Shown here in pieces: positions 43,519-64,000 of a stretch of 64,000 nucleotides of DNA (positions are counted from its first letter, which is position 1; each line of letters begins with the position of its first letter). The stretch is from Aeromicrobium sp. 9AM. GTDB taxonomy: Bacteria; Actinomycetota; Actinomycetes; Propionibacteriales; Nocardioidaceae. The stretch is from positions 434,001 through 498,000 of the forward strand of contig NZ_LR733303.1 in NCBI RefSeq assembly GCF_902506105.1. Direction: 5' to 3'. A model generated the notes under the pieces. It had not been told where the DNA came from. It saw only the letters and a program-made list of their open reading frames with translations, and ran no database searches. The position numbers and the translations under genes were made by a program.

Positions 43519-43525
43519 GATGAGC

Positions 43526-43531
43526 ACGCTA
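43526..43531 (-). promoter_or_regulatory. -10 element of a leaderless promoter for the pca operon
   Basis: On the minus strand TAGCGT precedes the pcaH GTG by exactly seven bases. No -35 hexamer is obvious, which fits a promoter that depends on an activator such as the divergent IclR protein. Confidence 0.55.
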
Positions 43532-43563
43532 GGCGCGAGGCGGTGGGTGGTGCGAGACTTGTC

Positions 43564-43573
43564 TTCCACTGAA
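43564..43573. promoter_or_regulatory. Candidate IclR-type operator in the pcaH/regulator gap
   Basis: TTCCACTGAA (TTC-n4-GAA) shares the core TTCCACTG with the site before pobA at 44340. It lies between the pcaH promoter and the regulator start, so one protein could control both. Confidence 0.45.
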
Positions 43574-43586
43574 CGAAAGGGTCGCC

Positions 43587-44339
43587 GTGGCCGGCAACAG
43601 CGCGGAGTCCGGGATCACCGTCGCCTCGCGCGTGCTGGCATTGCTGGGTTCGTTCGATCCCGAGCACCGAGCGCTGACTCTGAGCGAGATGGCCCGGCGG
43701 GCCGGTCTGTCGTTGCCCACCGCCCATCGACTTGTCTCCGAGCTCGTCGACTGGGGTGCCGTGGTCAGGCGCAGCTCGGGGAAGTACGTCATCGGGCGCC
43801 GGCTGTGGGACCTCGGGCTGCTCTCGCCGACCCAGTCGGGACTCCGACAGGTCGCCTCGCCGTTCCTGCACGACATCTACGGCGCGACCCTCGCGACGGT
43901 GCACCTCGCCGTGCGTGATGAGCTCGACGTGCTCTATCTCGACCGGCTCTCGGGCCACGCGTCGGTGCCCGTCGTGAGCCAGATCGGCTCGCGCCTGCCG
44001 CTGCACGCCACGGGTGTTGGCAAGGTGCTCCTGGCGTACGCGCCGGAGGACGTCCAGACCGCGGTGCTGTCCGATCTCACCCGCATCACTCCCTACACGA
44101 TCACGCAGCCGGGGCTGCTGCGCGATCAGCTCCGCCGGGTGCATCGCGAGGGGTATGCCACGACGGTCGAGGAGATGAGCCTCGGCGCGTGCTCCGTCGC
44201 GGTTCCGATCCGGGCGTCGAACGGTCAGGTCGTCGCGGCGCTCGGCATCGTGGTCCCTACGCTCAAGCGCGACCGGGCGAGGCTGGTCGCCGCGCTCCAG
44301 GTGGCGGCGCAAGGCGTTGGCCGGAGCCTCGGCGTCTAG
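43587..44339 (+). CDS. IclR-family regulator of protocatechuate/4-hydroxybenzoate genes
   Basis: A 250-residue regulator. The N-terminal winged helix has SRVLALLGSFDPEHRALTLSEMARRAGLSLPTAHRLVSELVDWGAVVR (about residues 12-60), and the effector domain ends with CSVAVPIRASNGQVVAALGIVVPT. Members such as PcaR, PcaU and PobR activate pca and pob genes with protocatechuate, beta-ketoadipate or 4-hydroxybenzoate. Its place between pcaH and pobA supports such a role. A GTG start follows GAAAGG. Whether it is PcaR- or PobR-like cannot be settled here. Confidence 0.9.
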   Translation: MAGNSAESGITVASRVLALLGSFDPEHRALTLSEMARRAGLSLPTAHRLVSELVDWGAVVRRSSGKYVIGRRLWDLGLLSPTQSGLRQVASPFLHDIYGATLATVHLAVRDELDVLYLDRLSGHASVPVVSQIGSRLPLHATGVGKVLLAYAPEDVQTAVLSDLTRITPYTITQPGLLRDQLRRVHREGYATTVEEMSLGACSVAVPIRASNGQVVAALGIVVPTLKRDRARLVAALQVAAQGVGRSLGV

Positions 44340-44354
44340 TTCCACTGGATGGAA
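44340..44354. promoter_or_regulatory. Candidate IclR-type operator upstream of pobA
   Basis: TTCCA-CTGGA-TGGAA is a perfect inverted repeat starting next to the IclR stop codon and ending 43 bases before the pobA ATG. The left half matches the TTCCACTG core found in front of pcaH. Confidence 0.55.
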
Positions 44355-44397
44355 GACCGAGATGGTCTGGCGACGGCACGGGGCATTGACTGACGGC

Positions 44398-45573
44398 ATG
44401 CGAACTGAAGTCGCCATCATCGGCGCCGGCCCCGCGGGTCTCCTGCTGTCCCACCTCCTTGCCCAGGACGGCATCGAGTCCGTCGTCGTCGAGATCCGGT
44501 CGGCCGAATACGTCGCGTCCCGGATCCGGGCCGGTGTGCTGGAGCACTCCACCGTCGAGCTGCTCGAGTCGGTGGGTCTCGGTGAGCGGCTGCGACGCGA
44601 GGGCGATGAGCACCGCGGCATCCACCTGCAGTGGCCAGAAGAGCGGCATCACATCGACTTCGTCGACCTGACCGACCGCAGCGTGTGGATCTACGGGCAG
44701 ACCGAGGTCCAGAAGGATCTCGTCGCCGCCCGCGCCAGCGCAGGGCAGGAGATCCACTACGAAGTCACCGACACCGCGCTGCATGACCTCGACACCGAGC
44801 GCCCGTACGTGACGTTCACCGATGTCGACGGCGTGGCGCAACGCCTCGACGCCGATGTCGTGGTCGGCTGCGACGGCTCGTTCGGCCCCAGCCGTGGAGC
44901 GGTCCCGGACTCGGTCAAGCAGTCCTGGGAGCGGGTCTATCCGTACTCGTGGCTCGGCATCCTCGCGGATGTCGCGCCCTCGACCGACGAGCTGATCTAC
45001 GCCTGGCACCCCGACGGCTTCGCGATGCACTCGATGCGCTCGTCGACCGTCAGCCGCCTCTACCTGCAGGTGCCCAACGGCACGGACGTGGCTGACTGGT
45101 CCGACGAGCGCATCTGGGACGGCCTCGCCACCCGGCTGGGTCACGGGCAGGACGGTTGGCAGCTCAATCCCGGTCCCATCACCGAGAAGAGCGTGCTCCC
45201 GATGCGCAGCTTCGTGCAGACGCCGATGCGGCACGGCCGGCTGTTCCTCGCCGGCGACGCGGCGCACATCGTGCCGCCGACCGGAGCCAAAGGCCTCAAC
45301 CTCGCTGTCGCCGATGTCGCGATGCTCGCGCCTGCTCTGGCCGCATTGCTGCGCAAGAAGGACCCGACCCTCGCCGACTCGTACTCCGACGACGCGCTCC
45401 GACGGGTCTGGCGCTGCACGCACTTCTCGTGGTGGATGACCACCATGCTGCACACCAGCGACGACCCGTTCGACGCCCAGCTGCAGCTGTCGCAGCTGCG
45501 TTGGGTCACCTCCAGCGAAGCCGGCGCCGCAGGGCTGGCCGAGAACTACGCCGGCCTGCCCATCGGCTTCTGA
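44398..45573 (+). CDS. pobA: 4-hydroxybenzoate 3-monooxygenase
   Basis: A 391-residue FAD monooxygenase that makes protocatechuate, the entry compound of the neighbouring pca operon. VAIIGAGPAGLLLSHLLAQDG (near 5-25) binds the ADP part, SRIRAGVLEHSTVELLESVG is a substrate-site segment typical of PobA, VVVGCDGSFGPSRGAV is the DG motif and FLAGDAAHIVPPTGAKGLNLAVADV (near 283-307) the GD motif. The ATG at 44398 gives the standard length; an open frame reaching 44317 overlaps the regulator and is not used. It lacks a clear ribosome site. Confidence 0.93.
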   Translation: MRTEVAIIGAGPAGLLLSHLLAQDGIESVVVEIRSAEYVASRIRAGVLEHSTVELLESVGLGERLRREGDEHRGIHLQWPEERHHIDFVDLTDRSVWIYGQTEVQKDLVAARASAGQEIHYEVTDTALHDLDTERPYVTFTDVDGVAQRLDADVVVGCDGSFGPSRGAVPDSVKQSWERVYPYSWLGILADVAPSTDELIYAWHPDGFAMHSMRSSTVSRLYLQVPNGTDVADWSDERIWDGLATRLGHGQDGWQLNPGPITEKSVLPMRSFVQTPMRHGRLFLAGDAAHIVPPTGAKGLNLAVADVAMLAPALAALLRKKDPTLADSYSDDALRRVWRCTHFSWWMTTMLHTSDDPFDAQLQLSQLRWVTSSEAGAAGLAENYAGLPIGF

Positions 45574-45644: not shown

Positions 45645-47324
45645 TCAGAGCGAACCCGAGACTGCGCGTCCTTCGAAGAACACCACCTGTGGCTTCGTTT
45701 CCAGAAACGTGTCGGTATCTGAGGAGAAGAGGTCCTCGTCGAGGACGACGAAGTTCGCGATCTTGCCAGGTTCGATAGATCCCGTCCGATCATCGATCCG
45801 GAGCTGCCGCGCGCCGTCAATCGTGTAGCCCTTGATCAACCGTTCCAAGCTCAATTTCGACGCAGCATCGGGCCGGACGCTGTCGGGGTGCCGCGACGGG
45901 TCGAGGGGGTACTGAGGATCGACGCGGTTGTGTGCCACATGGATGCCGAAGAACGGGTTGCCCCTGTTCAGCTCGTACTGGGTGACCACATCGCTGGAGA
46001 AGGTCAACGCGGCGCCACTCGTCGCGATGTCGTTGAACGCGTACATGCGGTTCCAGCGCTCGTCTCCGAGGTACTTCTTGGCCTCCTCGCCGAAGTATCC
46101 GCCAGACCAGTGCGTCGTCCAGTTCACGATGATGCCCAGCTCTGCCGGACGGCTCATGTCGGCAGGGTCGACCAGTTCGCAGTGGGCGAACGTGACCTGG
46201 ATCCGCCACTCGTCGCCGTCCTCGGTGGCCCGTTTGCGAGCTGTCTCTACCGCATCGCACCCGTTGCGAAAGGCCCTGTCCCCCACCATGTGGATGTGCA
46301 GGTCCACATCCGACCTGTTGCACTGCACCAGGCACGCCGTCAGATCATCGAGGTCCATCTGGATCTCGCCGTGGTTCTCTCCGCAGCGGTCGTCGCTTTG
46401 CGGTTTGAGAAGTGCGCTGTTCCCGCTCTCGTTCGTTCCGTCCAGGAAGAGCTTCAGCGTTCGGATCCGGATGTGGTCATTCCCATACGTGGCCTGATAA
46501 TGATGAACTGTCTCGATGGCCTCCGGAAGATCGTCAAGCGTGCGAAATCGTGGCGCCCCTTCGTAGTGGACGTGCAGTTCTCCAGCGGCGTCGAGCTCGG
46601 CAACCGAGCGCAGTGTGTCTTCGTCGGCGACGAGTGCCTCGAAGAGCGCGGTCACGCCATGTTCGGTCATGAACTGGAAGAACGGCCGCATGCCCTCGGC
46701 GGTCAATCCCGTCGGGGGCCGCCACCCCAGGCGCGCGTACATCCTCTCGATGAAGTGATGGTGGACATTTTCGAGTAGATGTCCGGTGGGTTCACCGGTC
46801 TCGTCGCGGGCGAACATCTCGAGCCCTGGCACAGGGTCGGGAGTCGCGGCGGTGATCTCCATCAGCTCGAGCATCTTCGAGTTCACCCAGTGTGAGTGCT
46901 CGCTGAAGTCCTGACACAGAACGGGTCGATCGGATATGGCGCCGTCGAGCAGTTCCTTCGTTGGTTGTCCTCCGCCGAACAGGGTGCTCGGGTAGTACTC
47001 GAAGTAGAGGAAAGGCATCTCCTCGGGCGGGTGGGCTTCCCCAAAGGCCCGGATGAACTCGAGAAGCGCCACCACATCGTGCGTCCAGGGAAGTCGCACG
47101 TGCCATTGGCTCTCGGCGACGAGGGAGGGGTGGGTGTGCGAGTCGATGAGGCCCGGCAGCACGAGCCTGCCGAGCATGTCGTGCACTGTGAACGAACCGT
47201 CGTCGCTCCAGTCCGATTCCTGCCCGACGAACACGAAGCGCCCTTCACGTACGGCGATGGTGTCAGCCCACGGCTGTTGTTCGTCCGACGTGTAGACCTT
47301 CGCGTTCTTCAGAACGATGTCCAT
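45645..47324 (-). CDS. YtcJ-type metal-dependent amidohydrolase
   Basis: A 559-residue amidohydrolase-3 family enzyme. GRLVLPGLIDSHTHPSLVA (near 64-82) holds the HxH metal motif. Further ligands are likely in LHIHMVGDRAFRNGCDAVE and VTFAHCELVDPADM; the C-terminal RLIKGYTIDGARQLRIDDRTGSIEPGKIANFVVLDEDLFS is the usual closing strand. Members hydrolyse amide, carbamate or imine C-N bonds. GGAGGAG precedes the ATG. It is the last gene of the MaoC-amidase operon and may process the same imported compound; the substrate is unknown. Confidence 0.85.
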   Translation of the reverse strand: MDIVLKNAKVYTSDEQQPWADTIAVREGRFVFVGQESDWSDDGSFTVHDMLGRLVLPGLIDSHTHPSLVAESQWHVRLPWTHDVVALLEFIRAFGEAHPPEEMPFLYFEYYPSTLFGGGQPTKELLDGAISDRPVLCQDFSEHSHWVNSKMLELMEITAATPDPVPGLEMFARDETGEPTGHLLENVHHHFIERMYARLGWRPPTGLTAEGMRPFFQFMTEHGVTALFEALVADEDTLRSVAELDAAGELHVHYEGAPRFRTLDDLPEAIETVHHYQATYGNDHIRIRTLKLFLDGTNESGNSALLKPQSDDRCGENHGEIQMDLDDLTACLVQCNRSDVDLHIHMVGDRAFRNGCDAVETARKRATEDGDEWRIQVTFAHCELVDPADMSRPAELGIIVNWTTHWSGGYFGEEAKKYLGDERWNRMYAFNDIATSGAALTFSSDVVTQYELNRGNPFFGIHVAHNRVDPQYPLDPSRHPDSVRPDAASKLSLERLIKGYTIDGARQLRIDDRTGSIEPGKIANFVVLDEDLFSSDTDTFLETKPQVVFFEGRAVSGSL

Positions 47325-47370: not shown

Positions 47371-48798
47371 CTACACAGGCGGCCGCCGCAAGGACCACTC
47401 GGTGAGCGACTCGTACGCGGCGGCAGCTCTGAGGGTCGCGGCGTCGGCATGTCGTGGGCCGATGAACTGGATCCCGACCGGGAGGCCTTCCGCGCTGAAT
47501 CCGCACGGCACAGTGATCGCCGGAAGGCCGGCATGGCTGGGCGGTTCGGTCAAGCGGTGGAAGTCTGTCGCTGGGTGGCTGACGGGCTTCCCGTTGATCT
47601 CGGTCGGACCTGCTTCGCGGCCCGGGTGGGGAAATGCCGTCACCGGCATGGTCGGGGTGACGAGGATGTCGAAGGAGTCGAACACCTCCGCGAAACCGTT
47701 CGATATCTCGCCTCGGGTTCGCATCGTTGTTCGGTAGTACTCGAGGGCGCCCAGCTGCTGACCCTGCCGAGCCATCTCCAGCATCATGGGATGCACGGTG
47801 GAGGAGTCCGCGGCGCCGGAGAGCAGATCGTCGCCGAGCTCATCCGCGAACGCAGGTGTCCAGAACGCCTGGAAGTAGGAAACCGGGTCAGGCAGGTTCA
47901 GGTCGACCTGCTCGACGACGGCGCCGCCTGAGCGCAGGTCTGCGAGCGCCAGTTCCACGATCTGACGTACCTCGTGATCGACGTCGGCCGTCCCGAAGTC
48001 AGGCGAATAGGCAATTCGCATCCCGTTGAGCGATGCACCGATGGTGGCGCCAACCCAGTCATCCGACGTCCATGGCAAGGACAGTGGATCCCGGGCGTCC
48101 GGGCCCACGGCGACTGACATCAGCAGGGCTGCGTCGCGGACGTTACGCGTCAGCGGGCCGTCCGTCCCGACGGACTCCCAAGGCGTCTGGACTGGGAAAC
48201 GACCCATCGATGCCTTCAGGCCAACGACACCGCAGCACGCCGCCGGTACGCGGATCGACCCGCCGCCGTCGGACCCCCAGGCAAAGGGTGCAACCCCGGA
48301 CGCGACGGATGCCGCCGCCCCGCCGCTGGAGCCGCCCGACGTGTGGGTCGTCGCCCATGGGGTGCTGGTGCGTCCGGTCAGCTGGCTGTCGGTCACCCCG
48401 AGCATGCCGAACTCCGGTGTCGTCGTCTTGCCGATGAGAATGGCACCGGCCGACTTGAGGCGGGACCAGGTGACGGCGTCGCGTTCAGGGATGTGGTCGG
48501 TGAAGCTCTTGGACCCGTACGTCGTGCGTACGCTGGCCGTGTCGCACAGGTCCTTGACCGTGATCGGCACGCCGTGGAGCGGGCCAAGATCGGCTTTGGG
48601 GTCGAGGAGCGCCTGCTCGGCGACCTTGGCGCCCGCCAGTGCCGCGTCAGCGGTGACGGTGACGAAGGCGTTGATCGCCGGCTCGACCTTTTCGAGTCGC
48701 TCCAGGACCGCGGTGACGGCCTCCGTGGGCGAGATGTCCCGCGCACGAATCTTGTCAGCGAGCTCGTGGCCAGGCATCCACACAATCTCGGTGTTCAT
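47371..48798 (-). CDS. Amidase-signature enzyme
   Basis: A 475-residue amidase of the AS family (PF01425). The catalytic Lys is in GVPITVKDLCDTASV (near 81), the cis-Ser and nucleophile Ser in HTSGGSSGGAAASVASGVAPFAWGSDGGGSIRVPAA (near 154-190). The length is normal for a cytosolic amidase. Its ATG overlaps the MaoC gene stop by four bases. Possible substrates are linear amides, aryl amides or carbamates. Together with the amidohydrolase and the peptide-type importer it suggests uptake and hydrolysis of an amide. Confidence 0.88.
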   Translation of the reverse strand: MNTEIVWMPGHELADKIRARDISPTEAVTAVLERLEKVEPAINAFVTVTADAALAGAKVAEQALLDPKADLGPLHGVPITVKDLCDTASVRTTYGSKSFTDHIPERDAVTWSRLKSAGAILIGKTTTPEFGMLGVTDSQLTGRTSTPWATTHTSGGSSGGAAASVASGVAPFAWGSDGGGSIRVPAACCGVVGLKASMGRFPVQTPWESVGTDGPLTRNVRDAALLMSVAVGPDARDPLSLPWTSDDWVGATIGASLNGMRIAYSPDFGTADVDHEVRQIVELALADLRSGGAVVEQVDLNLPDPVSYFQAFWTPAFADELGDDLLSGAADSSTVHPMMLEMARQGQQLGALEYYRTTMRTRGEISNGFAEVFDSFDILVTPTMPVTAFPHPGREAGPTEINGKPVSHPATDFHRLTEPPSHAGLPAITVPCGFSAEGLPVGIQFIGPRHADAATLRAAAAYESLTEWSLRRPPV

Positions 48799-49277
48799 GC
48801 GCGGTCACCGTCGCCCAGTGTCCAGAGGACTCGCCATTCGGCTGTCATCGCGGGTTTGACTCGATCGCGCACCTCGAGCCAACAGCTCAGGAGCAGCAGC
48901 TGGCCATCACCGCGGGGGATCACCTCAGAGACGGTGCCGCGGATCCGGAAGACGTCATCCACCGTCACAGGGCTGACGAATCGCACGCGGTCCAGACCGT
49001 AGTTCCAGCCGGTCCACGCCGGATCGTCGATGTAGAGAATCTGGTTGGAGAGGTGGTCGAGCAGGCTCAGCAGATGGAAGCCCTCGACCAAGCCATCGGG
49101 GAAGTTCGAACCTTCAAGAGCGACGGTGTTCTGGTCGGTGTAGGTCGCGAAGTCGAACGGTTGGAGGCGATCGGCATCGACCGAGAACCATCCTCCGGTG
49201 AACTCCCGACCTTGCATGCTCGAGATGTCTCCCCAGGAGGAGGACACGGTGGTGATGTCGGTGGTGGATGGCGTCAC
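48795..49277 (-). CDS. MaoC-like hot-dog-fold protein
   Basis: A 160-residue protein with a hot-dog dehydratase-like core: FSVDADRLQPFDFATYT, FPDGLVEGFHLLSLLDHL (the usual Asp-His helix area) and YGLDRVRFVSPVTVDDVFRIRGTVSEVI. Similar proteins hydrate enoyl-CoA or bind CoA esters. The exact catalytic Asp-His pair is not clear. I use the GTG at 49277 with GAGG eight bases upstream; another GTG two codons earlier is possible. It is first in the minus-strand operon with the amidase and amidohydrolase, and divergent from the TetR gene. Confidence 0.68.
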   Translation of the reverse strand: MTPSTTDITTVSSSWGDISSMQGREFTGGWFSVDADRLQPFDFATYTDQNTVALEGSNFPDGLVEGFHLLSLLDHLSNQILYIDDPAWTGWNYGLDRVRFVSPVTVDDVFRIRGTVSEVIPRGDGQLLLLSCWLEVRDRVKPAMTAEWRVLWTLGDGDRA

Positions 49278-49306
49278 TGTCACGTCCTCATCGGGCAGAA
49301 TCAAAA

Positions 49307-49347
49307 TGTAGTGACCACTATAACTGGAGAATGTAGCGGTTACTATA
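49307..49347. promoter_or_regulatory. Two tandem TetR-type operators in the divergent MaoC/TetR gap
   Basis: TGTAGTGACCACTATA (49307-49322) and TGTAGCGGTTACTATA (49332-49347) lie 25 bases apart. The first is TGTAGTG-nn-CACTATA, a near-perfect inverted repeat. On the minus strand each contains TATAGT, which can serve as a -10. Similar sites occur at 52191 and 52382. The rest of the 159-base gap has no gene. Confidence 0.65.
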
Positions 49348-49436
49348 GTTGGCACGCGCCTGAGTCTGGCCGCGTTGATCGTGGACGTGGATCGGGCGAA
49401 TGCTCGCGCATCCGAGGGGACTACGAAGGGGTTTGC

Positions 49437-50027
49437 ATGGCACGCCACGTCGATCACGTAGAGCGCAAGAGAGAGATCGCGCAGGCCGCGATCCGGATTC
49501 TCGGACGCGGCGGAACCTCGGCGCTCACCCTCAAAAGTCTTGCTGAAGAGCTCGGAGGGTCCATCACCCTGGTCACCTACTTCTTCTCGAGCAGGGCGGA
49601 GATCTTCGCTGCAGTCGTCGACGACCTCGTCGCCGGTTGGGATGAGGAGCTGGCTCAGCTCGAAGAGGGTGCGGACGCCGTCGGACGTCTCAAGATCCTG
49701 CTGGAGTGGTTGTTGCCCCTGGATCCGGAGGACGTGGCGAACGAGTCGGGACGCATCGCACTCATCCCACACCGGGGGGAGCACGCGAGTATCGACCGCT
49801 TCTTCGACGTCATGGAGTACCGGATGCGCGGGCTGCTTCGCTCGCACCTCATGGGTCTCGTCCCCGCCAATGAGCTGGAAGCGGCCGTGAGCCTGCTGCG
49901 CGCGACGGTCAACGGCGTCGTGCTCTCGACGGTCGAGCACCCGAACCTGTGGAGCCGTGACGACCAGCTGGCCGTCATCGATGCGGCGATGCGGTCGCTG
50001 AGCCTCAAGGAATCACTCTCCTCCTAG
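49437..50027 (+). CDS. TetR/AcrR-family regulator of the amide island
   Basis: A 196-residue repressor. The helix-turn-helix KREIAQAAIRILGRGGTSALTLKSLAEELGGSITLVTYFFSSRAEIFAAVV spans about residues 10-60 and resembles BetI-like TetR proteins. The C-terminal ligand domain begins around residue 70. AAGGGG precedes the ATG. It is flanked by two tandem operators on its own promoter side and is convergent with the acyl-CoA synthetase gene; both stop codons share the bases CTAG. I infer that it controls the MaoC operon, itself, the synthetase and the importer. Confidence 0.88.
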   Translation: MARHVDHVERKREIAQAAIRILGRGGTSALTLKSLAEELGGSITLVTYFFSSRAEIFAAVVDDLVAGWDEELAQLEEGADAVGRLKILLEWLLPLDPEDVANESGRIALIPHRGEHASIDRFFDVMEYRMRGLLRSHLMGLVPANELEAAVSLLRATVNGVVLSTVEHPNLWSRDDQLAVIDAAMRSLSLKESLSS

Positions 50028-52171
50028 GCGGTGTCAGCAGACTTCACGAGCAGCGAGTCCACCACGATGACGCGGCCGCTGCCGTGCTCGATCAGGACGG
50101 GGTTGAGGTCGGCCTCCTTCACGAGGTCGCCCAGGTCGTAGGCGAGCCATGAGAGCCGCGAGACGAGCTCGGTGAACGGTTCGCCGGAGGTGTCGGGCGC
50201 GAGGTTCCGATATCCCCTGAGCAGGGTGCCGAGCCGAGTGGTCGACAGCAGCCGGGCAGCCCGCATCGGGTCGATCGGCGCCAGCGCCTCTGCTGCGTCG
50301 CCGATCAGCTCGACGAGTGTCCCGCCCATCCCGAGTCCGATCGTCGCGCCGAGGCGGGGATCGGCCACGTAGCCGGCGAAAGCCTCGAAGGCGGCCCCGA
50401 CCTGCTCCTGGACCTCGAATCCGGCAACTCTCGCACCAGGAGCCTCAAGACGTACGTTGGCCAAGATCTGCTCGGCTGCCCGCTGCAGTTCTGCTTCGGT
50501 TCGGATGTCGAGCACGACTCCGCCGACGTCCGACCGGTGCGCGATGTCGGGCGACGCGATCTTGAGGACGATGGGAAAACGGTGCGCGCGTGCCCACACG
50601 ATGGCCTCGTCCGCGCTGGCCACAGTGCCCGAGGCGACAGTAGGTATGCCGTATGCCGCGAGCACCTCATCACGCAGGGTGGGGGCGAGGCTCTCGGCCC
50701 GCAGGATGCGGTCGCGAAGGTCAGTGACCGTGGTGGCACTCGGGAGGTCACCCTGCCGGTGGGGAGGCCTGATGATCGCCGCGCTGTTGGCCGCTGCACC
50801 CCGCAATGCGACGAGTGCGTTGCGGATTCCGCGGATCACCGGGAGGTCCGGTCCGGCGAGCTCCAGCGTGCGTTCGTGGATGCTGACCGACGAGCTCGAG
50901 GCAATGACGAAAGGCCGGTTCGGGTGCTGCGCGGCGGCGGCGCGTACCGCAGATATGTAGCAGTCCTCGAACTCGAGCTCCGCCATGCTCAGCGTCTGTT
51001 GGGCGTCCAGCACGACCAGGACGGCATCGATGCCGTCGTCGGCAGCCAGCGCAAGCAGGGACTTGTCGTAGGCGTCATCGCCCGCGACCACACTGCCCCC
51101 GGCATCGAGAGGATTGTGGACGGGCATGTCCGGGAGGAGTCCTTCGAGCAGGCCCTGCGTGGCGTCGGCGAACTGCGGGAGTGCAATCCCAAGCCCGTCG
51201 GCGAGGTCGGCCGTCATTGCCGCCTGCCCACCCGAGATCGTGACGACCCCGACACGGGTGCCCGCGACCGTGCGGTCCCCAAGCATCGACAGGCACTGCA
51301 GCGTGCTGGCGAGCTCGTCGTAGTCGTCGACCAGAGGCACGTCGATCGCCTCGAAAAGACTCGTGTACGCGGCATCTCGTGACAGCACGGCGCCGGTGTG
51401 AGCCGTGGTGGCCAGACCGCCGAGGGCGGTGCGGCCCACCTTGAGGGCGACCACGGGCTTGCCGGCCGAGCGGGCCGTACGCACTGCCGTGGTGAACGCC
51501 TCGGCATCCTGGATCGACTCGATGACCAGCCCGATCACGGCGGTCTGTGGATCGTGGGCCAGCCACGAGATGTAGTCGGCGGTGGTGGTCCCCAGCTCGT
51601 TGCCGGTCGAGATGATCTTGGAGAAGCCCGAGGGCGCGGCCGATCGCGCGACGAAGATCGCTGCTGACCCGGACTGGGTGACCAGCGAGATGTCGCCCGC
51701 GGGCAGGTCCATGAGGATGCCTTCGTCGATCCACAAGGGGATGCGGTCGGACACGTTGATGAGGCCCATGCAGTTGGGCCCGTGGACGAGCATTCCGGAG
51801 CTGGCGGTGAACTCGCGGATCGAAGCGATGTGTTCAGCTGACAGTCCGGCACTCGGCACCACAGCCGCAGGACAGCCGATCGAGTCGAGCTCGCGCAGCG
51901 CCTGAAGCACTGCTTGTGCCGGAAGCGCGACCAGTGCCACGCCCACCTGCCGATCGACCAGCTCGGCGATGGCGGTGTGGGCCATCAGTCCCTCGATGGT
52001 GCCGCCCGATGGATTGACGACGCTGATCCTGCCGCCGAATCCAGAGCTCTGGAGGTTGCGGATCGCCTGATTCCCTCCGGCGTCGTCCCGCTTGGCCGAC
52101 GCTCCGATCACGGCCACGTGCTGCGGCGTGAACAGCGAGTCGAGCTGCGAGGGTGAGACAAGCGTCGGCAT
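50024..52171 (-). CDS. NDP-forming acyl-CoA synthetase (ACD/acetate-CoA ligase type), fused subunits
   Basis: A 715-residue protein joining the alpha part (CoA-binding VAVIGASAKRDDAGGNQAIRNL near 20-41, VTQSGSAAIFVARS near 165, and the phospho-His in ATTAHTGAVLSRD near 255) and the beta ATP-grasp part (from about residue 480, FPIVLKIASPDIAHRSDVGGVVLDI). It makes acyl-CoA from an acid with ATP or GTP via a phosphohistidine, or runs in reverse. The substrate acid is unknown. AGGATCC-type spacing and GGAGG precede the ATG. The promoter contains a candidate operator for the TetR protein at 49437. Confidence 0.88.
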   Translation of the reverse strand: MPTLVSPSQLDSLFTPQHVAVIGASAKRDDAGGNQAIRNLQSSGFGGRISVVNPSGGTIEGLMAHTAIAELVDRQVGVALVALPAQAVLQALRELDSIGCPAAVVPSAGLSAEHIASIREFTASSGMLVHGPNCMGLINVSDRIPLWIDEGILMDLPAGDISLVTQSGSAAIFVARSAAPSGFSKIISTGNELGTTTADYISWLAHDPQTAVIGLVIESIQDAEAFTTAVRTARSAGKPVVALKVGRTALGGLATTAHTGAVLSRDAAYTSLFEAIDVPLVDDYDELASTLQCLSMLGDRTVAGTRVGVVTISGGQAAMTADLADGLGIALPQFADATQGLLEGLLPDMPVHNPLDAGGSVVAGDDAYDKSLLALAADDGIDAVLVVLDAQQTLSMAELEFEDCYISAVRAAAAQHPNRPFVIASSSSVSIHERTLELAGPDLPVIRGIRNALVALRGAAANSAAIIRPPHRQGDLPSATTVTDLRDRILRAESLAPTLRDEVLAAYGIPTVASGTVASADEAIVWARAHRFPIVLKIASPDIAHRSDVGGVVLDIRTEAELQRAAEQILANVRLEAPGARVAGFEVQEQVGAAFEAFAGYVADPRLGATIGLGMGGTLVELIGDAAEALAPIDPMRAARLLSTTRLGTLLRGYRNLAPDTSGEPFTELVSRLSWLAYDLGDLVKEADLNPVLIEHGSGRVIVVDSLLVKSADTA

Positions 52172-52190
52172 CTGGATCCTCCATTGGGTG

Positions 52191-52206
52191 TGTAGTGCGC
52201 ACTATA
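52191..52206. promoter_or_regulatory. TetR-type operator upstream of the acyl-CoA synthetase gene
   Basis: TGTAGTGCGCACTATA is an almost perfect 16-bp palindrome containing the perfect 12-bp core TAGTGCGCACTA. It differs from the site at 49307 at only two central positions. On the minus strand its TATAGT can be the -10 for the synthetase gene. Confidence 0.65.
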
Positions 52207-52371
52207 CAAATGAATCGTTTGGCTGACCAGTGCCAGCGCAAACGAGTCATCGGTGGGGCACCGTGTTAGACCAACGATTGCGAGACCACCCCGGAATGAC
52301 AGGAAAAGAGGTCGAAGATGTAACAGGAAGCCTGATGATTGTTACGATCGCGAGAAATATTCTCAGAACCC

Positions 52372-52399
52372 TTGTTGGATCCATAGTGCTTGCTATAAA
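52372..52399 (+). promoter_or_regulatory. Promoter of the Opp/Dpp-type importer with overlapping operator
   Basis: TTGTTG (52372-52377) and TATAAA (52394-52399) have 16-bp spacing. CATAGTGCTTGCTATA (52382-52397) overlaps the -10 and resembles the three TetR sites nearby. The inverted repeat GAGAA-ATA-TTCTC lies about 30 bases upstream, near 52352. Nothing else is seen in the 284-base gap. Confidence 0.5.
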
Positions 52400-52455
52400 T
52401 TCGCTTCTACGTGATGCGGGTCACCCGGCCCGGCACCCCTTTTGGAGGAGTTTGA

Positions 52456-54111
52456 ATGTTGCAGTCGCAGAGGTTCGTGAGAGGTCGCCGACGGTGCGCC
52501 GCAGCAGCCGCCGGGGTGTCGCTCCTGCTCGTCGCAGCGTGTTCAGGTGGGTCCAGCAACGACGACAAGACCGTCGACGTGTCGAAAGACCTCGCGTCGA
52601 CCATGTCGCCGGCCAAGGGTGACATCGACCAGCTCACCTGGAACCTGACGGCGGGCGAGCCTGACACCCTGGACCCGCGCAACGCGGCGACCTACGGCGG
52701 AGGCCAGGTCACCAGCAACCTCTGTGATCCGTTGGTGCGTGTCGACGCCGACTACAAGCTCACCCCGAACCTCGTGTCGTTCAAGCAGGTGACTCCGACC
52801 AAGCTGGTCTACACGCTCGTCGCGGACGCGACGTTCTGGGACGGCAAGCCCGTCACCGCCGAGGACATCGCCTTCAGCCTCAACCGGGCCAAGGCGCCCG
52901 ACTCGATCGTGAGCTTCATCTACGCCAACGTGAAGTCCATCGAGGCCACCGGCGACAAGGAGGTCACGGTCACGTTCACCAAGCCGGATGAGCTCTTCAA
53001 CAACGAGATGAGCACGATCGCCGGACTCGTGGTGGAGAAGGCGTACACCGAGAAGAACGCCAAGACATTCGGTACGTCAGCAGGCGGTCTCATGTGCAGC
53101 GGACCCTTCAAGCTGGACAGCTGGAAGACCGGCGACAGCATCACGATGAGCCGCAACGACAACTACTGGAACGACACCTACAAGGCGCACGCGGCGTCGG
53201 TGAAGTTCACCTTCGTGACTGACTCGACGGCGCTGACGCAGGCTCTGAACGCCGGCGAGATCGACGGGGCCTACGAGGTCTCGCCTGACGCCATCACGTC
53301 GCTGAAATCCAATGGCCGCAACGCGGTCGTGTTCGGCCCGTCGACCCAGTCGCTCAAGCTCGACGTGGCGAACCCGGGCGGCGTGACTGCTGACCGGACG
53401 TTCATGCAGGGGTTGCAGAAGATCGTGGATCGGAAGGCCTTGGCGAAGGTGATCTACAAGGGCGCCGCAACGCCCCTCTACTCCGCGATCACTCCCACGA
53501 CCTGGCCCAACGATCAGCGCGCCACCTACCAGAAGGCGTACGACGTGCTGGAGAAGGAGCGCGCGTTCGATGCCAAGGGAGCCAAGAAGCTCATCGAGCA
53601 GTCGGACTACGACGGGCAGAAGCTCGTCGTCGCGATCCCGGCCGGCAACTCCGTCCTCTCCAAGACGGCCCAGCTGCTCCAGCAGCAGGCCAAGCAGGCG
53701 GGCGTCACGATCAAGATCCTGTCGCTCCAGCCGCTCGTTTACAGCCAGGCAGGCTACGACGCCACCAAGCGCAAGGGCATCGACTTCCTGCTCGGCACCT
53801 CGTTCAACGGTGTGCAGGATCCACTCGAGCCGGCCGGCTTCGTCTACCTGCCCAAGGCCTTCTACAACTACACCGACCTTGATGACCCGGCCGTGACGGA
53901 TGCCTTGAACACCGCTCGGGAGACGTTCGACGGTGACAAGCGCGCCGAGCTGTTCATCAAGGCGCAGACGACGTTCGAGCAGGCTTCGGCGACAGTCCCG
54001 CTGCTCAGCACGAACACCGTGACAGTGCTCAACAAGAAGTACACCGGCGCCGTGACATCGTTCGCCTACTGGGCGATGCCGCAGATGGCTCCGATCGGAG
54101 CGGCCAAGTGA
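52456..54111 (+). CDS. Peptide/nickel-type ABC transporter substrate-binding lipoprotein
   Basis: A 551-residue receptor of the DppA/OppA family (SBP_bac_5). The leader ends in LLLVAAC with Cys29 for lipid attachment. DQLTWNLTAGEPDTLDPRNAATYGGGQVTSNLCDPLVRVD is the typical family start and FWDGKPVTAEDIAFSLNRA a conserved helix. TTTGGAGGAG precedes the ATG. It is first in a complete five-gene importer. The neighbouring amidase, amidohydrolase and shared operators suggest an amide-containing solute in place of, or in addition to, ordinary peptides. Confidence 0.92.
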   Translation: MLQSQRFVRGRRRCAAAAAGVSLLLVAACSGGSSNDDKTVDVSKDLASTMSPAKGDIDQLTWNLTAGEPDTLDPRNAATYGGGQVTSNLCDPLVRVDADYKLTPNLVSFKQVTPTKLVYTLVADATFWDGKPVTAEDIAFSLNRAKAPDSIVSFIYANVKSIEATGDKEVTVTFTKPDELFNNEMSTIAGLVVEKAYTEKNAKTFGTSAGGLMCSGPFKLDSWKTGDSITMSRNDNYWNDTYKAHAASVKFTFVTDSTALTQALNAGEIDGAYEVSPDAITSLKSNGRNAVVFGPSTQSLKLDVANPGGVTADRTFMQGLQKIVDRKALAKVIYKGAATPLYSAITPTTWPNDQRATYQKAYDVLEKERAFDAKGAKKLIEQSDYDGQKLVVAIPAGNSVLSKTAQLLQQQAKQAGVTIKILSLQPLVYSQAGYDATKRKGIDFLLGTSFNGVQDPLEPAGFVYLPKAFYNYTDLDDPAVTDALNTARETFDGDKRAELFIKAQTTFEQASATVPLLSTNTVTVLNKKYTGAVTSFAYWAMPQMAPIGAAK

Positions 54112-54133: not shown

Positions 54134-55120
54134 GTGAGCGTCAGTCCTCCGGACGCCGCCGCCGGTCCCTCGCGGGGCCGGCGGGCGGCTTCGCCGGTTC
54201 GCCTGCTCGCGGGCGCCGTGGGCACCGTCCTGGCCGCATCGTTCGTGATCTTCTCCTCACTCAGTGTTGCACCGGGTGATCCGGTCTCCCAGATCCTCGG
54301 GCAGAAGGCCACGGACGCTCAACGAGCCGCGATGCGGACTCAGCTCGGCCTCGACGACCCGCTGCTCGTGCGCTACTGGCACTGGCTCACGGGCGTCGTT
54401 CACGGCGACTTCGGCACGTCGCTGACCTATCGGCAGAGCGTGTCGGGCCTGCTGGGTCCACGCATCCTGACCACGCTCGCCCTCGTGGTGATGTCGGCGG
54501 TGATCATCCTGCTGGTCGGTGTCGCATTGGGCGCGTTCGGTGGCACCAGTCAGCGTTGGCGTCCGGTCGTCAACGGGGTCGTCGGTTTCGGGGTCGCGAT
54601 TCCCGGATTCGTCGCCGCCAGCGTGCTGATCAGCATCTTCGCGGTCAAGCTCGGGTGGTTCCCGACGTACGGCGCGGGTTCTGGGTTCGTCGACCGGATC
54701 TGGCACCTGACGTTGCCGGCCGTCGCGCTGTCGCTGGGATGGACGGCTTACGTCGCTCAGATGACTGCCGCTGCTGTGAAGGAGGAGGCGAGCCGGGAGC
54801 ACGTCATGACGGCGACCGGGCGGGGCCTTCCCCGCCAGCTCGTCTTTCGCCGGCACATCATGCGAAACGCGTCCATCCCGGTTCTGACGGCGTCCGGCCT
54901 CACGGTTGCGGGCCTCGTCGCGGGGTCGGTGGTGATCGAGTCGGCCTTTGCCGTCGACGGCATCGGCTCGCTGCTGATCAAGAGCGTCTCCAACAAGGAC
55001 TACTCGGTCGTCACGGCGATCTCGCTGCTGATCGTGATCGTCTTCGTCCTCGTGACCACGGTCATCGATTTCGCTCAGGCAGCTCTGGATCCGCGGCTCC
55101 GTGACGGAGGGAAGGTGTGA
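54134..55120 (+). CDS. Opp/Dpp-type ABC transporter permease 1 (DppB-like)
   Basis: A 328-residue permease with six predicted membrane spans. GTVLAASFVIFSSLSVAPGDPV near residues 30-55 is the typical first helix and loop, MRTQLGLDDPLLVRYWHWLTGVVHGDFGTSL the conserved extracytoplasmic motif, and SREHVMTATGRGLPRQLVFRRHIMRNASIPVLTASGL the EAA loop that contacts the ATPases. It starts with GTG 22 bases after the binding-protein gene. The stop overlaps the next gene. Confidence 0.9.
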   Translation: MSVSPPDAAAGPSRGRRAASPVRLLAGAVGTVLAASFVIFSSLSVAPGDPVSQILGQKATDAQRAAMRTQLGLDDPLLVRYWHWLTGVVHGDFGTSLTYRQSVSGLLGPRILTTLALVVMSAVIILLVGVALGAFGGTSQRWRPVVNGVVGFGVAIPGFVAASVLISIFAVKLGWFPTYGAGSGFVDRIWHLTLPAVALSLGWTAYVAQMTAAAVKEEASREHVMTATGRGLPRQLVFRRHIMRNASIPVLTASGLTVAGLVAGSVVIESAFAVDGIGSLLIKSVSNKDYSVVTAISLLIVIVFVLVTTVIDFAQAALDPRLRDGGKV

Positions 55121-55971
55121 TGAGCACTCTGACGGCACGTCTCAGCAGTAGGCGCACGAGGACTGGTTCGGTCGACAAGGTGGTGCTGGTCTTCGGGACG
55201 GTCTGCGGATTCCTGATCCTCATGGCCGTGTTCGGGCCACTCCTCGCTCCGCATCCGCCCTCGCAGACGGACATCCTCGCAACCAGTCAGGGCCCGAGCG
55301 GCCAGCACCTGCTCGGCACGGACTCGTTGGGTCGCGACATTCTCTCCCGCTTGCTGGCAGGTGCTCGGCTCAGCTTCCTCGGTCCCGGCATCATCGTGGT
55401 CGTGAGTGCCACCGCCGGCACGGCGTTGGCGATCGCTGCGGCATGGCACGGCGGGTGGCTCGATCGAGGACTCAACCGCGTTCTGAACGTCATGTTCGCG
55501 GTGCCCGGGATCCTTGTCGCGGTGCTGGCGGCCGCGGTGTTCGGGGCTGGGTTCTGGGCTCCTGTCCTCGCCCTCTCGCTCGTCTACATTCCCTACGTCG
55601 CCCGCGTCGTACGGTCGGCAGCGGTGCGCGAGCGCCGGATGCCGTACGTCGAGGCGTGCGAGCTCGCCGGGTTGTCAGCGTGGCGGATCTGCACGCGCCA
55701 CATCCTCCGCAATGTGTTCCCCATCGTCATGGCGCAGGCCACGATCGGGTTCGGCTCGGCGTTGATGGACTTCGGCGCCACCTCGTTCCTCGGCCTGGGC
55801 GTCCAGCCGCCGAGTGCTGAGTGGGGTCTCATGGTCAGCGACGGCCGCTCCGAGCTCCTCGACGGCGCCTTGCAGCAGAGCCTTTCAGCGGGCGCCCTCA
55901 TCGTCCTGACCGTCGTGTCGTTCAACATCGTCGGTGAGCGCCTTTCCAGTCGTATAGGAGCCAGCGGATGA
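55120..55971 (+). CDS. Opp/Dpp-type ABC transporter permease 2 (DppC-like)
   Basis: A 283-residue second permease with the DppC features LGTDSLGRDILSRLLAGARLSFLGPGIIVV and the EAA loop PYVEACELAGLSAWRICTRHILRNVFPIVMAQA. LDFGATSFLGLGVQPPSAEWGLMVSDGRSELL-type sequence is near the end. I use the ATG at 55120, which overlaps the upstream TGA and has GGAGGG eight bases before it; a GTG one codon earlier is also in frame. It pairs with the DppB-like permease. Confidence 0.9.
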   Translation: MSTLTARLSSRRTRTGSVDKVVLVFGTVCGFLILMAVFGPLLAPHPPSQTDILATSQGPSGQHLLGTDSLGRDILSRLLAGARLSFLGPGIIVVVSATAGTALAIAAAWHGGWLDRGLNRVLNVMFAVPGILVAVLAAAVFGAGFWAPVLALSLVYIPYVARVVRSAAVRERRMPYVEACELAGLSAWRICTRHILRNVFPIVMAQATIGFGSALMDFGATSFLGLGVQPPSAEWGLMVSDGRSELLDGALQQSLSAGALIVLTVVSFNIVGERLSSRIGASG

Positions 55972-56972
55972 CGTCAGATCGGTTGCTCAGCATCGAGGGC
56001 CTGAGGGTCGACCTCCCGAGTCGGTCGGGGTCGCGTGAGCGCAGGACCGTTATCCACGACGTGACCTTGAGCGTGGACGACGGCGAGTCAGTTGGGCTGG
56101 TCGGGGAGTCGGGGTCGGGCAAGTCCATGACCACCAAGGCGACCATGCGGCTCCTGCCGCCGGGAGCGAAGGTCTCGGGAGGCTTGACCTTCCGGGGCGA
56201 GTCGGTGCTGGACTACTCGCGCAAGGAGCTCGCGGCCTACCGGTCGCGCAAGGTCTCGATGATCTATCAAGACCCCCGCGCCCACACCAACCCCCTGCTG
56301 ACCATCGGGGACTTCCTGGTCGAAGGCGTCGTCGCCACGGGCCAGATGAGTCGCGCCGACGCGCTCGACCAGGCGTGCGCCCTGCTGGTGGACGTGGGCG
56401 TGACCGACGCCGAGCGGCGGATGCTGCAGTATCCGCACCAGCTCTCCGGCGGTCTGCTCCAGCGCATGATGATCGTGATGGCCCTGATGCCGTCGCCGGA
56501 GCTCATCCTCGCAGATGAGCCCACCACGGCGCTGGATGTCACGGTCCAGTCCGAAGTCATGGCGATCCTTGCTGAGCAGATCCGCGAGCGCTCTCTGGGC
56601 ATGCTGTTCATCACCCACGACCTCGACCTGGCAGCGGCTGTCACGGACACCCTCGCAGTGATGTACGCCGGCGTGATCGTCGAACGCGGACCGTCGGACG
56701 AGGTGTACTCCAAGCCTCGCCATCCCTACACCGCCGCGCTCCTCAAGTCGCGGCCGAGCGCGGTCAAGGTCGAGCGCCTCGAGACGATCCCCGGCCGGCC
56801 GATCTCGGCGTACGAGGCGGGCCCGGGCTGTGTCTTCGCCGCGCGGTGTCCGTTCGCGACCGAGGAGTGCCGTGAGGTACGCCCCGCGCTGCGCCAGGTG
56901 GGCGGGCGGTCCGTGGCGTGCCACCGGGCCGAGGACATCGCATCCGAGCTCTTCGAAGGATTGAGCGCATGA
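55968..56972 (+). CDS. Opp/Dpp-type ABC transporter ATPase 1 (DppD-like)
   Basis: A 334-residue ATPase. Walker A GESGSGKSMTTKA lies near residue 45, the signature LSGGLLQRMM near 161 (a variant of LSGGMRQR) and Walker B LILADEPTTALDVT near 178. The C-terminal GPGCVFAARCPFATEECREVRPALRQVGGRSVACHRAED contains the Cys-rich element found in Opp/Dpp ATPases, which may bind an iron-sulfur cluster. It overlaps both neighbours by four bases. Confidence 0.9.
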   Translation: MTSDRLLSIEGLRVDLPSRSGSRERRTVIHDVTLSVDDGESVGLVGESGSGKSMTTKATMRLLPPGAKVSGGLTFRGESVLDYSRKELAAYRSRKVSMIYQDPRAHTNPLLTIGDFLVEGVVATGQMSRADALDQACALLVDVGVTDAERRMLQYPHQLSGGLLQRMMIVMALMPSPELILADEPTTALDVTVQSEVMAILAEQIRERSLGMLFITHDLDLAAAVTDTLAVMYAGVIVERGPSDEVYSKPRHPYTAALLKSRPSAVKVERLETIPGRPISAYEAGPGCVFAARCPFATEECREVRPALRQVGGRSVACHRAEDIASELFEGLSA

Positions 56973-57796
56973 CGACGCATCTGCTGGACGTTCACCATCT
57001 GCGCAAGGTCTTCCATGTCGGGAGGGCCAAGGGCCGCTCCGAGGAGCTGGTCGCCGTCGATGACGTGAGCTTCTCGCTGGAGCGGAACAGCTCGCTGGCC
57101 GTGGTCGGCGAATCAGGATCCGGCAAGACGACGACCGCGAGGATCATCGCGGGCCTGGAGTCGGCGACGGGTGGTTCGATCGAGCTCGACGGCAAGCCGC
57201 TCGCCTCGCCGGACAGCCCTCGTTCACGCCGGCTCAAGGCGCGAGAGATCCAGATGGTGTTCCAGGATCCGTTCGGTTCGCTGGATCCGCGCCAGAAGGT
57301 CGGTGCGTGCATCGACGAGCTGCTCGCGGCGCACTTCGATCACGACAAGGCGTGGCGTCGCGATCGGACGATGGAGCTGCTTGCCCAGGTCGGTCTCGAC
57401 GAGCGACACGCCGACGAGCTGCCGCGCCGCCTTTCGGGCGGGCAGCGGCAGCGCGTCGCGATCGCCCGGGCGCTTTCGCTCGAGCCCAAGCTGCTGATCC
57501 TCGATGAGGCTGTCTCGGCCCTCGACGTCAGTGTCCAGGCGCAGGTCCTCAACCTGCTGAGCGACATCCGCGAATCTCTCGACATCACGTATCTGTTCGT
57601 CTCACACGACCTCGCCGTCGTGCGGCAGATCAGCGACCACTGCATCGTGATGGACCGCGGGCGCATCGTCGAGATGGGGTCCACCGAGTCCGTCCTCGAC
57701 TCGCCGGCCGAGGACTACACCAAGCAGTTGCTCGACGCGATCCCGCGGCCGGGCTGGACGCCCAGCAGGCGACGAGACCTGCCGGCGTCAGTCTGA
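56969..57796 (+). CDS. Opp/Dpp-type ABC transporter ATPase 2 (DppF-like)
   Basis: A 275-residue ATPase. Walker A GESGSGKTT lies near residue 47, the family motif QMVFQDPFGSLDPRQKVG near 95, the signature LSGGQRQRVA near 156 and Walker B LLILDEAVSALDVS near 176 (DEA rather than DEP). It lacks the C-terminal Cys element of its partner. The ATG at 56969 overlaps the DppD-like stop. The last codons fall in a palindrome shared with the convergent amidohydrolase gene. Confidence 0.9.
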   Translation: MTTHLLDVHHLRKVFHVGRAKGRSEELVAVDDVSFSLERNSSLAVVGESGSGKTTTARIIAGLESATGGSIELDGKPLASPDSPRSRRLKAREIQMVFQDPFGSLDPRQKVGACIDELLAAHFDHDKAWRRDRTMELLAQVGLDERHADELPRRLSGGQRQRVAIARALSLEPKLLILDEAVSALDVSVQAQVLNLLSDIRESLDITYLFVSHDLAVVRQISDHCIVMDRGRIVEMGSTESVLDSPAEDYTKQLLDAIPRPGWTPSRRRDLPASV

Positions 57797-57807
57797 GGCG
57801 CCTCAGA
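57792..57807. terminator. 16-bp perfect palindrome spanning two convergent stop codons
   Basis: TCTGAGGCGCCTCAGA is a continuous palindrome without spacer. It contains the TGA of the DppF-like gene (57794-57796) and the complement of the TGA of the amidohydrolase (57803-57805). It may act as a weak bidirectional terminator. Confidence 0.45.
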
Positions 57808-62975: not shown

Positions 62976-64000
62976 TCAGGAGATGACTACGTCTGATGTC
63001 GGGACGGCGCAGCAGATGAGCGTCTGTCCTGCTGGTGCGGGGGTCACCGGCTCGAGCGTGTAGAAGACATCGCCGGTGACCTTGACCGCGCAGGTGCCGC
63101 ACGCCCCCGCCCGGCAGCTTGCCGGCAAGCTCTGGCCCCGCTTGTCTGCAAGATCGAGAAGTGTCCCGCACGACGGGTCCCATTCGTACACCTGCCCGGA
63201 CCTGGCGAACTCGACCCGGAACGGCCCAGCTCGAGGTGCTTCACGCGGTTCCGGAACGTCGTGACGAGGGGAGTAGAACGGGTCGGCGTGGATCGCGTCG
63301 TCGCCGATCCCTCGCTCGGCCGCAAAGTGTCTTACGTCCTGGAGGAAGGTGGCGGGCCCGCAGACGTGAAGCTCGGTCTGGCTCGCATCCGTGATCAAGG
63401 AGCTGAGGAACTCACCGGTCGGTCGACCCTCGTGGTGGACTCCCGGGTGGGCGTCCGACCTGGTGAGGAAGAGATGGTGCCGCACGTTCGGCAGTGCCGT
63501 TGCCGCCCGCTCGATCTCGTCCCAGTGGGGGATGGCTTCGCGCGACCTGTCCACGTGCACGAAGTCGACGGCGCGGTCGCTGTTGGCGTCCTGCAAGGCG
63601 CGGGCGATCGACAACGCCGGGGTGATGCCGATGCCGGCCGTCAGCACGACCAGATGGTCTGGACCCTGCGGGTCGGCGGTGGCTTCACCGTACGGACCCG
63701 AGACCAGCACGTCGGCCGATGCGCGAAGGTCGTGGACGATCGGCGAGGCAAGTCCGTCCTCGAGTCGGCGCACGGTGATGCGTACGCCCCGAGCGTCGAC
63801 GCCGGAGATTGTGTAGTTGCGCCACCATGGCCGCTCGCCGGACGTGCCGTGGAGTCGCAGGTGCTGACCGGGCGCGGCTTGCGACAGTGTTCCGGTCGAG
63901 TCCTCGATCAGGAGGCTGGCGGCGTCTCGCGCGGGCGCTTCCACGCGCGAGATCGAGCCTGGCCGTGGCGCAGAACGCGCCTCGTTCACGGTCGCCCCGG
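62976..64000 (-). CDS. Ferredoxin reductase-type oxidoreductase with C-terminal 2Fe-2S domain, open at window edge
   Basis: At least 337 residues. An FAD/FMN-binding beta-barrel (PGQHLRLHG, RNYTISGVD near 59-67), an NAD-binding domain (VLTAGIGITPALSIARAL near 120, ELHVCGPATFLQDV near 218) and a C-terminal plant-type ferredoxin with CRAGACGTCAVKV (near 295-307) and a fourth Cys in LICCAVP. A GTG at 63989 is possible, but the frame stays open to the window end. The order fits oxygenase reductases, or the C-terminal half of a MOSC-FNR-ferredoxin fusion whose N-terminus lies outside. It would pass electrons from NAD(P)H to a partner oxygenase. Confidence 0.82.
   Translation of the reverse strand, partial: GATVNEARSAPRPGSISRVEAPARDAASLLIEDSTGTLSQAAPGQHLRLHGTSGERPWWRNYTISGVDARGVRITVRRLEDGLASPIVHDLRASADVLVSGPYGEATADPQGPDHLVVLTAGIGITPALSIARALQDANSDRAVDFVHVDRSREAIPHWDEIERAATALPNVRHHLFLTRSDAHPGVHHEGRPTGEFLSSLITDASQTELHVCGPATFLQDVRHFAAERGIGDDAIHADPFYSPRHDVPEPREAPRAGPFRVEFARSGQVYEWDPSCGTLLDLADKRGQSLPASCRAGACGTCAVKVTGDVFYTLEPVTPAPAGQTLICCAVPTSDVVIS

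Follow-up and report, generated by a model that had tools for sequence, protein, structure and literature searches.

A probable TetR regulon for amide import and breakdown, joined by five similar operators, in Aeromicrobium sp. 9AM

A 64,000-nucleotide stretch of the Aeromicrobium sp. 9AM genome (C6:434001-498000 of the 4.19-Mb genome; hereinafter, the window) encodes a TetR-family regulator (49437..50027, + strand, 196 amino acids (aa), with a BetI-type C-terminal domain) that, judging from sequence comparison, is probably a local, autoregulated repressor of an amide regulon with five operator sites. The repressor would bind the five sites and shut off the maoC-like/amidase/amidohydrolase genes, tetR itself, a CoA ligase gene and an Opp importer; from one site shared by divergent genes, it would also shut off a DAO-cupin pair (DAO is a FAD-dependent oxidoreductase) and a MOSC reductase gene. 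Release of the repressor would be brought about by the imported amide or a breakdown product. The pathway is likely to be one that imports an amide and breaks it down, and both halves of the molecule may be used: the Opp importer would take up an amide-bearing molecule, and the amidase would cleave the amide, possibly with the help of the amidohydrolase (in some Streptomyces, of an S15 hydrolase). The acid half would be converted to a CoA thioester and the amine half oxidized by the flavin-dependent DAO; the MOSC reductase may first strip an N-OH group. We infer binding, repression, the inducer and the order of the steps, alongside the sites, the gene contents and the partial conservation of the sites with the TetR, which are computed.

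Proteins of the TetR family act as dimers on palindromic operators, and local TetR repressors have palindromic sites close to promoters that drive transport and catabolic genes. The four 16-bp sequences that the initial annotation took for operators are all present in the window, with no strand assigned to them. Site 1, TGTAGTGACCACTATA (49307..49322), lies between the maoC-like gene and tetR, 24 nt ahead of a GTG at 49283 that may be the start of the former, and site 2, TGTAGCGGTTACTATA (49332..49347), is 25 bp away from it; the region of these two sites forms a 23-nt direct repeat with 74% identity. Site 3, TGTAGTGCGCACTATA (52191..52206), is located 20 nt before the start of the CoA ligase gene and differs from site 1 at two positions, as had been noted; site 4, CATAGTGCTTGCTATA (52382..52397), is located 59 nt before the start of the solute-binding protein gene (52456). 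The predicted operator approximates a 16-bp palindrome, TRTAGYG-NN-CRCTAYA.

The four sites are real and stand far above chance. With up to three mismatches, the pattern TRTAGTGNNCACTAYA matches five places in the window, compared to 0.83 expected in shuffled sequence: the four named sites and a 3-mismatch match at 1519. A scoring matrix built solely from the four window sites assigns them scores of 19.2 to 22.6, against 12.0 for the runner-up in the 64 kb; when the matrix is rebuilt with each site left out in turn, the sites score 17.7 to 22.6 versus 11.7 to 12.7 for the best non-site in 81 kb. Under an independent-base background, 0.14 places with a score of at least 19.2 are expected genome-wide.

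Extension of the search to the complete genome revealed a fifth site. The pattern TRTAGTGNNCACTATA, with at most one mismatch, occurs at three places in the 4.19 Mb, namely, sites 1 and 3 and C6:498853-498868. This last place, site 5 (TATAGTACTCACTACA; 64853-64868 in window coordinates, 853 bp past the window end), belongs to the intergenic region between the divergent DAO and MOSC reductase genes and scores 22.6 with the four-site matrix, the runner-up within 20 kb scoring 8.3. All five sites are intergenic, intergenic DNA making up 5.1% of the stretch by the gene calls of this analysis. As a control for AT content, the half-site columns of the matrix were permuted to give 1000 matrices, and the promoter scores were summed; for the site 5 promoter, two of the 1000 score as well as the actual matrix. 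The regulon that the initial annotation had drawn appears correct in that the named units carry sites, and too small in that site 5 adds DAO-cupin and the MOSC reductase, genes that lay beyond the sequence on which that annotation was based. These new predicted members suggest oxidation of the released amine as an additional step. The other places in the genome within three mismatches (n = 13) were rejected as sites, with matrix scores of only 9.2 to 14.5; 13.6 places with a score of at least 14.5 are expected by chance in 4.19 Mb, and the best of the 13, C6:96324, falls within open reading frames. A reversed control pattern yields 54 matches genome-wide versus 13 for the pattern itself.

It appears highly improbable that the likeness of the sites merely reflects -10 elements of promoters (TATAGT/TATAAA) within intergenic DNA rich in AT. 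The half-sites do hold TATA, and a promoter-like -10 hexamer (- strand, 52206-52201) overlaps site 3, but the likeness spans the 16-bp palindrome including its G and C positions, permuted matrices rarely match site 5 or the Streptomyces loci L028 and L037-L039 discussed below, and no such score is found near the DAO relatives in 28 genomes in which no TetR was detected. The hexamer at site 3 is the only promoter-like match across 49200-52500, where 0.3 are expected, and gives weak backing to repression at this site.

The regulator matches its family in domain scores and fold. The TetR_N helix-turn-helix domain (PF00440) scores 26.5 bits, above the gathering threshold of 24, TetR_C_6 scores 27 bits at a cut-off of 27, and the BetI equivalog model TIGR03384 scores 47.4 bits, below its cut-off of 201.3. 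The structural model (predicted local distance difference test (pLDDT) score of 87) matches the fold of TetR structures, the nearest being the Rhodococcus RHA1 regulators 2np5, 2gfn and 2nx4, the titles of which give no function. In the helix-turn-helix, 10 of 11 aligned TetR proteins contain the segment GGS[IT]TLVT, and the 11th has I for V. Given that sequence by itself cannot pair a protein with a site, the sites might be bound by another regulator encoded elsewhere, with the TetR being its target or unrelated. Other regulators are encoded nearby, a MarR gene at 62528-62974 and an IclR gene at 43587-44339, and the latter clusters with an IclR gene at the TetR locus L020 of Streptomyces ossamyceticus. 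We consider this alternative quite unlikely, however, as two of the sites sit in the tetR promoter region, the TetR and the motif co-occur in Aeromicrobium and at several loci of Streptomyces, and DAO relatives from genomes with no TetR detected lack the motif nearby.

Relatives of the TetR look rare in the genomes sampled. They were detected in two of 148 related genomes (Aeromicrobium sp. 9AM itself and Aeromicrobium sp. Root344), in the same two of the 391 genomes of an order sample, in Aeromicrobium sp. 9AM alone of 396 genomes of a phylum sample, and, with the S. graminilatus TetR as the query, in four of 392 genomes of presumed Streptomyces; these counts are lower bounds, few candidates having been scored per genome. 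A scan of contigs with a single TetR query confirmed none of 223 stretches, and a profile scan of contigs produced 10 loci, five from Streptomyces and one each from a Catenulispora bin, an Actinomycetota bin, Root344, Microbacterium and Nocardia. A Herbiconiux plasmid (L030, 15001-16219) carries two tandem TetR-family genes next to genes for Opp, amidase, M28 peptidase, cupin and a FAD oxidoreductase. At L036 (6189-6517; same genome as L031), a TetR relative next to Opp genes is split into pieces that lie in different frames, and it may be broken.

The regulon itself is well supported, and these comparisons indicate that it is conserved in part, with both predicted sites and genes recurring in some Streptomyces. 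The S. graminilatus TetR at locus L028 is 59% identical to the window regulator by tblastn and 54% in the alignment. The five top-scoring places in the 20.5 kb of this locus, 7916 (20.6), 16291 (14.8), 17941 (14.0), 16277 (12.3) and 9934 (9.8), stand before the genes for an S15 hydrolase, Opp, DAO, Opp again and maoC/tetR, respectively; for four promoters of this locus, none of the 1000 permuted matrices reaches the sum of the actual one, although the best comes near (59.0 versus 59.2). At the S. scabichelini locus L026 (TetR identity of 41%), 13 of the 1000 reach it. In three further Streptomyces loci, L037-L039 (TetR identity of 39-40%), the best hits precede the amidase, Opp and MaoC-ligase genes and, in L037, also tetR, with a site at 1078 ahead of the tetR start at 1152 as located by tblastn; in L039, the fourth hit, at 1963, lies 458 nt away from where the amidase was called to start. 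When the tetR promoter is included for each of the three loci, none of the 1000 permuted matrices reaches the sum in any of them.

DAO, in contrast to the TetR, is widespread: 53 of the 148 related genomes, Aeromicrobium sp. 9AM included, encode a relative at E 1e-100. The DAO loci of 29 other genomes (L041-L069; 56-77% identical), 28 without a TetR match and one, L042, from Root344, served as a control set. The best matrix score across these stretches of up to 4.4 kb each is 9.8, whereas the window genome reaches 22.6 and L028 reaches 14.0. The nine longer stretches L070-L078, which include a second DAO region of Aeromicrobium sp. 9AM, give at most 13.3, at the end of a coding region (L074:2184). 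Because no comparable score is found near DAO relatives in genomes without a detected TetR, the operator seems to follow the TetR rather than the enzyme. In four Aeromicrobium stretches with no TetR detected (L070, L071, L072 and L075), the DAO is 73-76% identical to that of the regulon and the neighbours fall into shared protein clusters; the L075 DAO was missed by the gene finder and located between the cluster genes by similarity search. In L070, the DAO neighbours encode a PucR-type regulator, an aminobutyraldehyde-dehydrogenase-like protein, an amine oxidase and a class III aminotransferase (for comparison with a putrescine-type amine route, see PMC9397018). Because orthologs from genomes with no TetR detected sit in such putrescine-type amine clusters, the role of DAO in the amine-half step is supported.

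In a more specific scheme, the regulon would serve the breakdown of plant hydroxycinnamic (phenolic) amides, for example, coumaroyl-putrescine: the amidase would split the amide, the CoA ligase would send the phenolic acid to the pobA/pca genes and DAO would take the amine. Apart from the DAO orthologs, which have aminobutyraldehyde-dehydrogenase-like genes and class III aminotransferase genes in their clusters, this scheme could draw on the adjoining 4-hydroxybenzoate 3-monooxygenase-like gene (44398-45573) and protocatechuate genes. It is nevertheless unlikely: no site precedes pobA/pca in the window; pobA, pcaG, pcaB and the thiolase have no relatives in the 16 stretches with TetR relatives, where pcaH has one weak match (29%, L039); and no paper on such a bacterial pathway was found in the open-access literature, where a search for a feruloyl-CoA synthetase was equally unproductive. 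The region in question (38570-45573), with the pca genes, the IclR gene and the 4-hydroxybenzoate 3-monooxygenase-like gene, lies directly beside the amidase operon and has no regulon site.

A recurrent set of genes emerges when the window genes are compared to the 16 stretches with TetR relatives, among which L018 and L019 are neighbors in one genome. Relatives of the amidase are present in 10 of the 16 (L018 and L019 containing two parts of one gene), of the MaoC-like protein in nine, of the cupin in five and of the NDP-forming ligase in four (L020, L021, L022 and L026); AMP-forming ligases are encoded in L019, L028 and L037-L039, S15 hydrolases in L019, L026, L028 and L038, and Opp importer genes in many of the stretches. 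L023 and L029 contain little of this set besides the TetR. The scheme of the initial annotation, 'import, hydrolyse, activate', agrees with the recurrent gene content around TetR relatives, except that the amidohydrolase lacks relatives there and the MaoC-like protein is a sub-threshold match without a clear hydratase signature. Breakdown of peptides or N-acyl amino acids by the regulon is a possible but less likely variant. The Opp importer and the S15, M24 and M28 peptidases found beside the TetR in relatives would suit it; no peptidase domain is present, however, among the scanned genes of the window and L017, and the repeated occurrence of CoA ligases hints at a carboxylic acid that is not an amino acid.

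Several observations weigh against a repressor with a single, conserved five-site amide regulon. Two of the seven places checked in L026 are intragenic. L037-L039 are closely related and amount to a single lineage, and the set of four promoters for each was drawn up after the hits had been seen; with a pre-chosen single promoter, 20, 20 and 46 of the 1000 permuted matrices do as well in L037, L039 and L038, respectively. The promoter sets at other loci, of one to three promoters each and scored with the same four-site matrix, mostly do not stand out clearly from permuted matrices: the numbers of permuted matrices out of 1000 are 19 for L023, 37 for L018, 64 for L021, 78 for L027, 102 for L020, 174 for L024, 176 for L019 and 246 for L022. 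In Aeromicrobium sp. Root344, which has two TetR relatives (about 39-42% identity), no match to the pattern was found. With respect to gene content, no relative of the amidohydrolase turned up at E 1e-6 in the 16 TetR stretches; a full-length MOSC relative is encoded at just one other locus (L026; 27% partial match in L020 and L021); and DAO relatives with at least 50% identity are present in four of the 16 (L019, L027, L028 and L030), four more having relatives with 26-31% identity. In view of the weak promoter sets, we reject the notion of one operator beside all TetR relatives. The claim of a single TetR regulon holds to the extent that one operator family appears to join the importer, the amidase, the CoA ligase or MaoC-like gene and tetR, here and in some Streptomyces, and is absent near DAO relatives in the 28 genomes without a detected TetR; the other TetR loci give a weaker signal or none. 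The tetR promoters of three Streptomyces loci, L020-L022, contain another palindrome, TGTAT-N8-ATACA, as judged by eye, and the helix-turn-helix segment of their regulators is nearly identical.

Most of the original gene assignments, those of the amidase, the amidohydrolase, tetR, the NDP-forming CoA ligase and the Opp/Dpp importer, agree with Pfam and NCBIfam; the MaoC match falls below the cut-off. The MaoC-like hot-dog protein (48795..49283, - strand) consists of 162 aa from the GTG start or 142 aa from 49223, and the shorter form scores 20 bits against a threshold of 27 for the MaoC dehydratase domain (PF01575). Its nearest structure is Rv0130 (2c2i; profile 1e-16, fold 2.9e-10). The model has an overall pLDDT of 80, falling below 50 in the signature loop; the loop His is present in six of nine MaoC-like members and absent from the window protein, and in this poor alignment the corresponding stretch of Rv0130 is gapped. 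Assuming that the Asp/His signature is the mark of the MaoC R-specific hydratases, the protein has no clear hydratase signature. The amidase-signature hydrolase (47371..48798, - strand, 475 aa) scores 356.9 bits for PF01425 (cut-off 27) and contains GGSSGG and VKD, which presumably correspond to the Ser-rich and catalytic Lys motifs of the amidase signature. Downstream is the amidohydrolase gene (Amidohydro_3; 45645..47324, - strand), with an uncertain start. The NDP-forming acyl-CoA ligase (50024..52171, - strand, 715 aa) has CoA-binding, Succ_CoA_lig and ATP-grasp domains, all above the Pfam cut-off, and none of the NCBIfam equivalogs listed for it reached the cut-off.

The importer genes, all on the + strand, encode an Opp/Dpp solute-binding protein (SBP_bac_5; 52456..54111), permeases B (54134..55120) and C (55117..55971), and ATPases D (55968..56972) and F (56969..57796, scanned from 56918). 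On both sides of site 5 are the MOSC-FAD-NAD-2Fe-2S oxidoreductase gene (YcbX-like; 62976..64000 and on to about 64796, - strand; L017:1976-3844), which is cut by the window end, and, divergent from it, the gene for DAO (64904-66316; L017:3904-5316), the end of which is overlapped by the cupin gene (66313-66687; L017:5313-5687). Among the NCBIfam models, DAO matches just TIGR03329 and AmaA at E 1e-20, both sub-threshold, and a PDB search with DAO returned one weak match.

In the MOSC reductase, the MOSC domain scores 64 bits (cut-off 22.7), Fer2 and NAD_binding_1 are above the cut-off and MOSC_N is below it; a single chain with the order MOSC-FAD-ferredoxin contains RCQAISVDP, which we take to be the conserved Cys motif of MOSC enzymes; Moco-dependent N-reduction is the activity characteristic of MOSC/YcbX enzymes. 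According to PMC10637980, MOSC proteins have one conserved cysteine in common, some bacterial YcbX proteins contain the full electron chain within one polypeptide, and hydroxamic acids are reduced by mARC enzymes. One can envisage a route by which N-hydroxylated amides (hydroxamates, perhaps diamine hydroxamates of a siderophore-like kind) would be broken down under one TetR, with Opp import, removal of N-OH by a self-sufficient MOSC enzyme to give the amide, amidase cleavage, oxidation of the amine half by DAO and ligation of the acid half to CoA, but this seems a distinctly remote prospect.

The genes at 57803-62428, for amidohydrolase_2, an L-carnitine-dehydrogenase-like protein, acetoacetate-CoA ligase and enoyl-CoA hydratase, start opposite the MarR gene, have no site and were rejected as regulon members. 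The S. antibioticus and S. ossamyceticus TetR loci encode amidohydrolase_2 relatives with 59-60% identity, and the former locus (L021, 16880-19024) includes a cytochrome P450 and a reductase gene near amidohydrolase_2.

The initial annotation knew of no described pathway with this set of genes, a statement with which the open-access literature is, weakly, consistent: no description of this gene set was found there, the search being confined to open-access papers. Through the putative regulator-operator pair, scattered genes come together in one probable pathway that has counterparts in both Aeromicrobium and Streptomyces; the operator would show which enzymes belong together, and the inducer of the TetR might point to the substrate of an unassigned actinobacterial amide route.

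A local TetR repressor over a catabolic regulon is of a familiar kind. Like BetI and RutR (NCBIfam models) and KstR (5fmp), the window regulator combines a TetR helix-turn-helix with a BetI-type C-terminal domain and is encoded divergently from a putative target; it differs from them in having its own site sequence and a different gene set. DAO resembles PuuB/SCO5671, the gamma-glutamylpolyamine oxidoreductase, in being a DAO flavoenzyme with orthologs beside aminobutyraldehyde-dehydrogenase-like and aminotransferase genes, a likeness drawn from gene context; unlike in the PuuB/SCO5671 pathways, it is grouped with an amidase, a CoA ligase and an Opp importer. The MaoC-like protein shares the hot-dog fold with Rv0130, at an identity of only 25%. 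Finally, the predicted MOSC reductase is akin to YcbX/mARC proteins in its MOSC domain, Cys motif, and fused FAD and 2Fe-2S domains, whereas its placement in a presumed catabolic regulon sets it apart.

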